From: a virus | DNA: 42,991 nucleotides | Virus record (IMG/VR): IMGVR_UViG_3300017991_000179 | Coordinates: 1 to 42,991 of that record | Direction: 5' to 3' (one strand) | Shown: positions 2,966 to 35,291 of the stretch, piece by piece | How the letters are laid out: every line of letters starts with the position of its first letter | How positions within the stretch are numbered: position 1 is the first letter of the stretch | The notes under the pieces: model-generated | What the model saw: the letters and a program-made list of their open reading frames with translations, nothing else | Database searches by the model: none | What the model was told of the DNA's origin: nothing | Translations under genes and position numbers: made by a program

Positions 2966-3037
2966 TAGCAACCGCAAAACGAGGCTAATTACTCAAAGCC
3001 TGCATAGTTGAGTAGATAATATCTAAATTACTCAATC
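2966..3037 (+). promoter_or_regulatory. Structured 5' leader with H-type pseudoknot
   Basis: Stem 1 is AGGCT (2982-2986) with AGCCT (2997-3001). The loop holds ACTCAA (2991-2996), complementary to TTGAGT (3008-3013), which comes after a 6-nt GCATAG linker. This gives an H-type pseudoknot. The capsid leader at 10987-11014 has the same layout, with the same stem 1 and linker but different bases in stem 2. TTGAGTA (3008-3014) can also pair with TACTCAA (3029-3035), 2 nt before the ATG, so two exclusive folds are possible. A role in translation or RNA stability of a highly expressed gene is inferred. Confidence 0.6.
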
Positions 3038-33500: not shown

Positions 33501-33606
33501 TGCAAAACGGGGGCGCGGTATCCCTAGACCACACCGTATAATCAAACACTTGCGAAGATAGAATGGTGCAGCAAGTGATAGCCCTGACATACGTTGGGGC
33601 TTTTTT
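33501..33606 (+). terminator. Structured 3' region with terminator
   Basis: AGCCCTGAC (33580-33588) pairs with GTTGGGGCT (33593-33601) over an ATAC loop, then TTTTTT. Upstream, CACTTGC (33547-33553) pairs with GCAAGTG (33571-33577), and GCGGT with ACCG (about 33515-33534). It may be just a 3' end, or a small RNA. It closes transcription before the terminase promoter. Confidence 0.7.
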
Positions 33607-33608
33607 GT

Positions 33609-33616
33609 TATCTTTG
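33609..33616 (+). promoter_or_regulatory. -7 box TATCTTTG of terminase operon
   Basis: An exact TAnnTTTG match, 62 nt before ATG 33679 and just upstream of the double-palindrome operator. Confidence 0.65.
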
Positions 33617-33622
33617 TATTAA

Positions 33623-33658
33623 AACTAAATTGTTAGTTTTGTAACTAAAGTTTTAGTT
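33623..33658. promoter_or_regulatory. Double-palindrome operator (copy 2)
   Basis: AACTAA (33623-33628) pairs with TTAGTT (33633-33638), and AACTAAA (33643-33649) with TTTAGTT (33652-33658). Centres are 20 bp apart, as in copy 1 (4951-4986). It lies right after the promoter box, where a bound regulator would block or slow the polymerase. Confidence 0.6.
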
Positions 33659-33678
33659 GATTATTCAAAACGCAATCA

Positions 33679-33954
33679 ATGCCACGAGGAGGAAAACGAC
33701 CAAATGCAGGTAGGAAATCAAAGGCAGAAGAACAGCGCATTAGAGACATTCTTTCGCCTTATAGAGAGGAAACAATTGAGAAGGTTGTAAACATTATGAG
33801 AACAGCCGAAAAAGAATCAGACCAACTTGCAGCCGCTAAACTTTTAATGTCTTATGATTGGGGTCTACCAAAGCAAAGGACAGAGGTTTCAACTGATGAC
33901 GGTCAACCATTCATTTTAACATTAAATAGTGGAGTTAAGCAAGAAGCAAACTGA
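33679..33954 (+). CDS. terS: Small terminase subunit
   Basis: 91 residues. MPRGGKRPNAGRKSKAEEQR is the basic GGxRxGAGRK-type start often seen in small terminases and related DNA-binding proteins. A helical centre and a short beta end follow. It would bind the phage pac/cos site and present it to the large subunit. Overlap by 26 nt with the large subunit start supports the call. It is shorter than most TerS proteins. Confidence 0.65.
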   Translation: MPRGGKRPNAGRKSKAEEQRIRDILSPYREETIEKVVNIMRTAEKESDQLAAAKLLMSYDWGLPKQRTEVSTDDGQPFILTLNSGVKQEAN

Positions 33955-34021
33955 GGCTTTTGAATTAGCAACATCGGGCAAGAAAGATGTAGTCTTGTAC
34001 GGTGGTGCTATACGGTATTAG
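33929..34021 (+). CDS. terL: Large terminase, N-terminal fragment (broken frame)
   Basis: GTG 33929 starts a frame reading ELSKKQTEAFELATSGKKDV, then VLYGGAIR and TAT TAG (stop 34019-34021). GGAIR is the first half of the TerL Walker A motif; the second half, GGKTYW, is found at 34056 in another frame. A 40-nt insert (34016-34055) parts the two. Without it the gene would be continuous, about 440 residues, the normal TerL length. Confidence 0.75.
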   Translation: MELSKKQTEAFELATSGKKDVVLYGGAIRY

Positions 34022-34055
34022 CCCCCAAATCTAACGAGGCGGGGGCAAACCTTGA
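34016..34055 (+). other. 40-nt insert within the Walker A codons of terL
   Basis: It follows CGG (Arg of GGAIR) and precedes GGC GGC AAA ACA (GGKT). Removing exactly 40 nt restores GAIRGGKT, a perfect GxxxxGKT P-loop. The insert holds TAG 34019 and TGA 34053 in the relevant frames. GCCCCC (34021-34026) and GGGGGC (34041-34046) form a strong hairpin. It could be a bypassed segment, an excised sequence, an inactivating insert or an assembly error. Confidence 0.6.
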
Positions 34056-35291
34056 GGCGGCAAAACATATTGGCTACTAACCACGTTCTGTTATTTAGCG
34101 TCCACTTATCCTAAGTCTCGATGGGTTATCGTTCGTGAATCATTACCAACGTTAAAGCGAACAACCTTAGTCTCCTTTGCAGCGTTACTTTCCGAAGGGC
34201 TTGACAAATACGTTCAAGACTTTAACAGAGATACGTACACGGTAACGTTTCGAAATCAGTCGCAGATTATCTTCATGGCTGAATCGTTTGATACCGACAA
34301 GGAATTGAACCGCTTTAGAGGTCTTGAAATCAACGGTGCAGGGGCAGAAGAAATAAACGAACTGCAAGAAGCAACGTTCTACAAACTCATTGAACGTTCG
34401 GGAACGTGGCTAAAGGCGGGCGATGTTCCAAGCGTTATATTGGCTACGTGTAACCCTACGCATAATTGGGTAAAGGCTAAGTTCTACGATAGATGGGTGG
34501 ATGGTTCGTTACCTGAACGCTGGGCATACATTCAAGCAAAGATTACCGATAACCCATTTATACCTGAAAGCTATCTGCAAAGCCTAAAAGCTAATATGAT
34601 GCCAACGGACTACCAAAGGTTCGTTGCGGGCGATTGGGAGGCAATAGAGGTAAAGAATCAGTTTGCTTACAACTTTAAAGACTATCACATCAAACCATGC
34701 TACCACTTACCCGAACGTGAATTGATTATTTCAATGGACTTTAACATAGAGCCTTTCGCGTTTATCTACTCTCATGTATGGCAAGACAAGGACGGTTGGC
34801 ATTGTCATATCTTCATGGAAGAAACCATTGAAAGCGGTTCTATTCAGAAAGCCGTTGAGAATATCAAATACAAGTTTTACGAACATACTTGGAATTGCAT
34901 AATAACAGGCGATTACAACGGCAACAAAAGGGAACTTAGTCAGAATGACCACGCTAGTAATTTCGAACAGATTAGACGCGAACTAGGTATATCAGCGAGG
35001 CAGATACAAACATCTCCCAACCCGAAGCACATCAATAGCCGTAACGACCTTAACTACGTGTTGTACCATTCAGAAGGTAAGCCGCATGATATTGACTTTA
35101 GGATAGACCCGCGATGTGAGAACACTATTCGTGACCTTCGATTTGTTGAGGCTGATGGTACGGGTTCAATAGCTAAGAGTAACAGGAAACACGAACACGA
35201 AAGAGCCGACCACATGGACGCGGTTAGGTACTTGGTCAACCACGAAAAGGTTCAAAAGTGGATTAAGTTCCGTCAAAAGTTGCGTGTCTGA
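34056..35291 (+). CDS. terL: Large terminase, main part (ATPase core and nuclease)
   Basis: The open frame from 34056 gives 411 residues: GGKTYW (Walker A end), WVIVRESLPTLKRTTL, FRGLEINGAGAEEINELQEA (Walker B and catalytic Glu region), VILATCNPTHNWVKAKFYDR (motif III) and the nuclease domain with ISMDFNIEPFAF, CIITGDYNGNK and HERADHMDAVRYL, whose Asp residues bind metal. It pumps DNA into the head through the portal and cuts it. The first ATG in frame is 34275, but starting there would remove the P-loop, so the true product must include the fragment from 33929. Confidence 0.85.
   Translation, partial: GGKTYWLLTTFCYLASTYPKSRWVIVRESLPTLKRTTLVSFAALLSEGLDKYVQDFNRDTYTVTFRNQSQIIFMAESFDTDKELNRFRGLEINGAGAEEINELQEATFYKLIERSGTWLKAGDVPSVILATCNPTHNWVKAKFYDRWVDGSLPERWAYIQAKITDNPFIPESYLQSLKANMMPTDYQRFVAGDWEAIEVKNQFAYNFKDYHIKPCYHLPERELIISMDFNIEPFAFIYSHVWQDKDGWHCHIFMEETIESGSIQKAVENIKYKFYEHTWNCIITGDYNGNKRELSQNDHASNFEQIRRELGISARQIQTSPNPKHINSRNDLNYVLYHSEGKPHDIDFRIDPRCENTIRDLRFVEADGTGSIAKSNRKHEHERADHMDAVRYLVNHEKVQKWIKFRQKLRV

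Follow-up and report, generated by a model that had tools for sequence, protein, structure and literature searches.

Known natural translational bypass sites outside yeast mitochondria amount to a handful, and the phage T4 gene 60 has been the sole well-studied case for decades. There, a short hairpin occupies the A site at take-off and excludes RF1 (PMC7282821), and a stem-loop 5′ of the take-off codon is proposed to zipper up and thereby pull the mRNA (PMC5009743). Synthetic stop-hops of 9 nt, in which a stop codon lies between two matched codons, are decoded as one amino acid, and no natural in-frame stop hopping is known according to the same review (PMC5009743). Bypassing has also been proposed for the terminase of Streptomyces phage phiHau3, as far as its citation in PMC5009743 tells.

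Here, we analyzed a virus DNA of 42,991 nt, positions 1–42,991 of the IMG/VR record IMGVR_UViG_3300017991_000179, hereafter the window. Its large terminase gene (terL) carries an insert directly after the Arg codon of the Walker A motif, and comparison with relatives suggests that this insert is very probably a programmed translational bypass element. The terminase locus has the following features.

33679–33954, + strand: terminase small subunit gene, overlapping the terL start (phrog_2538, E 3e-4)
33929–34015, + strand: terL 5′ part from the GTG start to the putative take-off codon, encoding VELSKKQTEAFELATSGKKDVVLYGGAIR; same start in the relative L012
33966–34010, + strand: 5′ stem-loop in the coding sequence before the take-off codon, arms 33966–33983 and 33993–34010, −18.1 kcal/mol
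34013–34015, + strand: putative take-off codon CGG, the Arg of the Walker A motif; position aligned across 148 TerL genes
34016–34055, + strand: 40-nt insert, a putatively untranslated gap; missing in 72 relatives, 39–44 nt in 45 and short in 24
34019–34021, + strand: in-frame stop TAG, one codon past the take-off codon
34021–34046, + strand: gap hairpin GCCCCC...GGGGGC, beginning 5 nt past the take-off codon
34053–34055, + strand: putative landing triplet TGA, which is CGN in 41 of 45 hairpin relatives in the 148-gene alignment
34056–35291, + strand: terL 3′ part, GGKTYW..., 411 aa (PF03237, E 3.6e-5; phrog_979 terminase large subunit, E 3.4e-21)

The 5′ frame runs from GTG 33929 through VELSKKQTEAFELATSGKKDVVLYGGAIR and one Y to the stop TAG at 34019–34021, and the remainder, in another phase, stays open from GGC 34056 up to its stop at 35291. 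The first-pass annotation had read this as terL split in its Walker A motif, with YGGAIR-Y-TAG followed by GGKT at 34056, and had noted that removal of 34016–34055 restores the motif as YGGAIRGGKT. Both readings are confirmed, and so is its GCCCCC/GGGGGC hairpin, whose arms at 34021–34026 and 34041–34046 fold with −14.6 kcal/mol, equalled by 3 of 200 shuffled sequences. GTG 33929 is a plausible start, being used by the uninterrupted relative L012 as well. At 33580–33608, a terminator-like hairpin, AGCCCTGACATACGTTGGGGCTTTTTT, separates the terminase genes from those upstream of them.

The window contains one terL only. In the downstream frame, TGA 34053–34055 directly adjoins GGC 34056 and the first later start is ATG 34275, 73 codons downstream, so re-initiation cannot yield a protein that bears the P-loop. 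The two-piece terminase offered by the annotation is thus very unlikely, since no start codon would include the P-loop.

The terL alignment of related phages that the annotation had proposed was run on relatives from IMG/VR protein searches and DNA-pattern scans, several hundred loci in all. A TerL profile filter and near-duplicate removal left 148 distinct genes. Among them, 72 are empty with GGxxR and GGK contiguous, 45 have an insert of 39–44 nt with a hairpin, 24 have a short insert and 7 are others, namely 6 without the Arg codon and L280. Because part of the collection scans selected for ATACG or CGN, frequencies taken from the resulting loci are biased. Three loci (L144, L145 and L147) matched the DNA pattern and are not terL, and L015, L016, L217–L219 and L160 were rejected as carriers, having GGxxG-type P-loops without the Arg codon.

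In the alignment, the insert follows the same Arg codon in all 69 filled genes other than L280. Such sharing of one site by 45 hairpin and 24 short relatives is, on this alignment, far beyond chance. Close relatives already differ: L002 and L004 are empty at 97% identity to the protein of the window, and L003, at 98%, carries the window's insert in a 41-nt version. A small clade of about 90% protein identity (L193–L201) holds four filled alleles of 40, 41, 43 and 44 nt together with several empty alleles, a good natural experiment on gain and loss of the insert.

The hairpin inserts are 39 nt in 14 genes, 40 nt in 3 and 41 nt in 26, and 43 and 44 nt also occur. Their lengths span all three phases, so a frameshift cannot account for them. 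Moreover, the window (40 nt) and L003 (41 nt), and likewise L092 (40 nt) and its kin (41 nt), are a single base apart, in the spacer that precedes the landing triplet. The gap tolerates one-base indels, since no phase links the two coding parts. As judged from these pairs, frameshifting and readthrough are excluded for the gaps of the window and L003 and of L092 and its kin.

Matched CGN codons flank the gap in 41 of 45 hairpin members and 22 of 24 short ones. The landing triplet of the 45 hairpin inserts is CGA in 20, CGT in 13, CGC in 8, TGA in 2 and AGA in 2. The 36 CGA take-offs always land on CGA, CGT or CGC, and the 8 CGG take-offs on CGA, TGA, AGA or CGT. CGA, CGT and CGC make up the codon set of the inosine-34 tRNA-Arg. 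The annotation had counted a lack of matching take-off and landing codons against bypassing; this holds literally for the window with CGG and TGA, but is misleading in view of the relatives. Re-pairing would be imperfect in the window and two relatives, since their landing triplets are UGA and AGA.

The codons before the gap are also skewed. At the loci from protein searches, 29/29 filled and 53/72 empty genes have CGN as the take-off Arg codon (Fisher p 0.0013, ignoring shared ancestry), and AUA as the Ile codon before it occurs in 16/20 hairpin genes, compared with 13/72 empty ones (p 5e-7, likewise ignoring shared ancestry). In L280, the insert sits one codon earlier, with AUA as both take-off and landing codon, and the 5′ stem-loop extends to the take-off codon. 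The phage record of L280 (L433) has a tRNA with anticodon CAU at 1501–1574, called tRNA-Met by ARAGORN, that would read AUA if it is tRNA-Ile2. It is the sole tRNA among 20 carrier records, and the window has none, so a phage tRNA-Arg was not found as a helper in either.

A stop codon lies directly 3′ of the take-off codon in 23 of the 24 short members and 12 of the 45 hairpin members (TAA 10, TAG 1, TGA 1). Many hairpin members thus have another codon in the A site, including the window, where TAT precedes TAG.

The gap hairpin begins 5–6 nt past the take-off codon in 44 of 45 hairpin members and ends mostly 6–10 nt ahead of the landing codon. It has 9–10 bp in most members, often with a GNRA tetraloop. 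Pair counts were taken from the equal-length set A4, because the MAFFT alignment A2 misaligns the gap hairpins. Among its 12 equal-length variants, 98% of cells are paired and 17 two-sided compensatory changes are seen versus 6.7 in shuffled sets, with a covariation score of 0.54 versus 0.21 when shuffled and at most 0.11 when slid. The predicted geometry fits the A-site hairpin of T4 gene 60.

Gap-hairpin matches outside terL were rejected as elements, being mostly intrinsic terminators (CCCCTTTCAGAAATGTTAGGGGTTTTTT), so a hairpin sequence match is no evidence of an element elsewhere. Intrinsic terminators of other phages (L085, L096, L101, L104 and others) have a hairpin, CCCCTTNCAGAAATGTNAGGGG, that is nearly that of the 41-nt gaps. 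Intrinsic terminators are a possible source of the gap hairpin. A generic scan of 6.7 Mb for a hairpin with CGN gave 387 distinct matches, of which 32 have the GGAIR motif of TerL; it is uninformative on other genes, since the remaining matches that were read were mostly GC-rich chance.

A second structure lies upstream. Over the 84 nt before take-off, pairs of hairpin genes of 80–90% identity have a third-position identity of 0.84 versus 0.68 downstream, and empty genes lack such raised likeness over this stretch. This stretch folds as a long stem; the P-loop coding sequence forms its 3′ arm, which ends near or inside the take-off codon. Relative to synonymous recoding, z averages −3.31 for hairpin, −3.36 for short-insert and −0.34 for empty genes, with z below −2 in 29/30, 16/20 and 6/70 of them, respectively. 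The window's own stem-loop is only moderately unusual (z −1.79).

Watson-Crick pairing in the 5′ stem falls from 74% to 51% when codons are drawn from the empty genes with the proteins fixed. Its covariation score is 0.297, compared with 0.161 when shuffled and at most 0.12 when slid. In these statistics, the 5′ stem-loop sets the filled genes apart from the empty ones and unites the 40-nt and 6-nt classes.

The 6-nt inserts read CGN-(TGA/TAG/TAA)-CGN in several divergent TerL groups. In 22 of 23 distinct 6-nt inserts, an Arg codon directly adjoins the stop on either side, and TAA, TAG and TGA all occur. By its sequence, the class looks like natural stop-hops. Five stop-hop genes of other TerL families (L211, L304, L313, L326 and L331) have no strong 5′ stem-loop. 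An unrestricted scan for 6-nt inserts at this site gave, among the matches listed, one further TerL only, L368 (minus strand, about 2717), with CGG-CAG-TGA-GGC; its stop is in the second codon and its landing triplet is TGA as in the window. At the same P-loop codon, a Bacteroidetes MAG contig (L216, about 2985–3005) reads CGA-TAGC-GGG GGA AAA, with an insert of 4 nt that includes a stop and has no clear landing match. L216 (4 nt) and L368 (CAG TGA) fit the bypass scheme poorly. A tail-protein-like family (L382–L420) repeatedly reads ATGGAIS-xx-GGKTIHTF; it was rejected as a terminase, being an unrelated chance match to the 6-nt control pattern.

A new type of bypass was one of five options in the annotation, and the matched codons, the hairpins and the 5′ stem-loop of the relatives now support it. 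Site, gap, hairpins, matched codons and selection are all read off the sequences, and from them we infer the following ribosomal steps. The first 29 codons would be translated, with the ribosome unwinding the 5′ stem-loop, until the Arg codon CGN is in the P site and a stop or an ordinary codon moves into the A site. The gap hairpin, 5–6 nt off, would fold in or beside the A site and keep out tRNA or release factor, and the 5′ stem-loop would re-fold behind the ribosome and pull the mRNA. The peptidyl-tRNA-Arg could then release its codon and the ribosome slide, until the anticodon re-pairs at the CGN just ahead of GGN, or at the near-cognate UGA in the window. Decoding would restart at GGKT and make the intact P-loop GGAIRGGKT. 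In the 6-nt class of CGN-stop-CGN, the same step would be a plain stop-hop, aided by the 5′ stem-loop in most members.

Removal at the RNA level would instead make the insert a micro-intron, which an RNA-processing enzyme, unknown or from the host, would excise from the terL mRNA. Exact excision would restore terL, and a hairpin of fixed geometry could serve as the enzyme's substrate. However, a 6-nt insert at the same site cannot be an intron, and this reading predicts neither an insert ending in CGN, nor the AUA-AUA variant, nor exon sequence that forms a 5′ stem-loop. Nor did Rfam give any match at E≤1 in 33600–34400, or at gathering scores across the window. We regard such an intron as highly improbable. 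The RNA or DNA excision suggested in the annotation fares poorly in general, as it predicts neither the matched gap ends, the 6-nt class, the AUA-to-AUA hop nor a 5′ stem-loop confined to filled genes.

The insert could also be mobile or phase-variable DNA that is lost in part of the population, with the filled copies non-functional or repaired by recombination. Filled and empty genes do alternate throughout the tree: on its 63 rows, the state changes 19 times, the same as with shuffled labels, so it turns over very fast. The N-terminal 84 nt also move along with the insert. Yet purifying selection is equal in filled and empty genes, the filled ones show RNA-specific covariation, and the window holds neither a second terL nor a spare N-terminal part. 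There is very little chance, in our view, that DNA-level loss accounts for the inserts.

Readthrough of the stop or frameshifting in place of bypassing would require no more than an A-site stop, and two classes, 6 nt and 39 nt, keep the phase. The two readings of the 6-nt class differ in product: readthrough would yield GGAIRxRGGKT, in which GxxxxGKT is disrupted and the P-loop broken, whereas a hop would yield GGAIRGGKT. Gaps of 40, 41, 43 and 44 nt shift the phase and contain stops, and no single codon reassignment fits, because all three stop codons occur. Readthrough or frameshifting is thus scarcely credible as a general explanation.

A broken gene (a pseudogene or a sequencing or assembly error) or a TerL supplied in trans would suit an interruption of terL's most conserved motif, but it has a negligible probability and is already refuted by the comparative data, save isolated cases such as L211, whose contig has frameshift-like errors and is weak evidence on its own. 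The assembly error considered by the annotation is excluded by dozens of independent contigs with one site and differing inserts, and its dead gene by intact downstream ORFs, mostly of 394–429 aa in the carriers, with a downstream dN/dS of 0.044 among hairpin genes, matching the 0.057 among empty genes. By this measure, the downstream protein is under normal purifying selection and the interrupted terL is in use.

Most genomes in which the window's TerL has relatives are MAGs with a Bacteroidetes or Sphingobacteriales label, and the tape-measure-like protein of the window has matches in Porphyromonas phages. We infer a Bacteroidota-type host for the window phage. Five phage-collection records, the isolates BS-TP1, lotta8-1, FPSV-S1 and 11b and the metagenomic MT835681, contain no carrier.

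As to the role of bypassing, the P-loop site, the fast turnover and the movement of the N-terminal part and the gap as one cassette would be consistent with a selfish cassette, or with protection of the conserved P-loop sequence from a cutting endonuclease, a shield of the kind proposed for T4. Limiting TerL synthesis is equally possible. Tentatively, and as a possibility rather than an expectation, we suggest a large, fast-turning family of P-loop bypass elements in Bacteroidota-linked phages, including the first natural stop-hops, that gates or shields packaging in that only hopping ribosomes would make a working motor. Judged from the open-access literature, the family is undescribed, and the kind of event is translational bypassing. 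With its length variants, covariation, empty sisters and minimal 6-nt form, the requirements for ribosome hopping become comparative and testable. In practice, terL, the commonest phage marker gene, may look broken in annotation though intact.

The 50-nt bypass of T4 gene 60 resembles the terL elements in being in a phage gene, in its similar gap size, in the hairpin near the take-off codon and the stem-loop 5′ of it, and in the stop adjoining take-off, as in most 39-nt members and the 6-nt class (PMC5009743, PMC7282821). It differs in lying in a topoisomerase gene and using Gly codons, compared with terL and Arg or Ile codons here, and the terL elements have many diverse members and no visible sequence similarity to it. 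A nascent-peptide signal of its KKYK type was not recognized by eye in the terL N-terminal peptides. The window also differs in having no HNH gene, so HNH as a mobilizer of the insert, after the T4 mobE-type homing cassette, was rejected; in a search that covered HNH (PF01844) only, 3 of 37 genomes, filled or empty, had one.

The synthetic stop-hops have the same arrangement as CGC-TGA-CGT and its kin here, but they are E. coli constructs, whereas most terL members additionally have the 5′ stem-loop. The Magnusiomyces mitochondrial bypasses likewise skip short inserts in essential genes, with landing codons that may match imperfectly. They occupy 81 sites in 12 mitochondrial genes independently of mRNA context, in contrast to the one fixed codon in one gene and the conserved structures of the terL elements.

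In our own reading of phiHau3 (NC_018836; L423, 2600–2635), terL breaks in the Walker A region as KGWG, TTACTCC and GGT-AAG-GAC, with the 7-nt break between the matched Gly codons GGC and GGT. It differs in this 7-nt spacer, whose rare UUA codon has been proposed as the trigger as far as PMC5009743 relates it, and in its lack of a gap hairpin, its actinobacterial host and its unrelated sequence. As its terL also breaks in the Walker A region, the P-loop appears to be a favored spot in unrelated phages.
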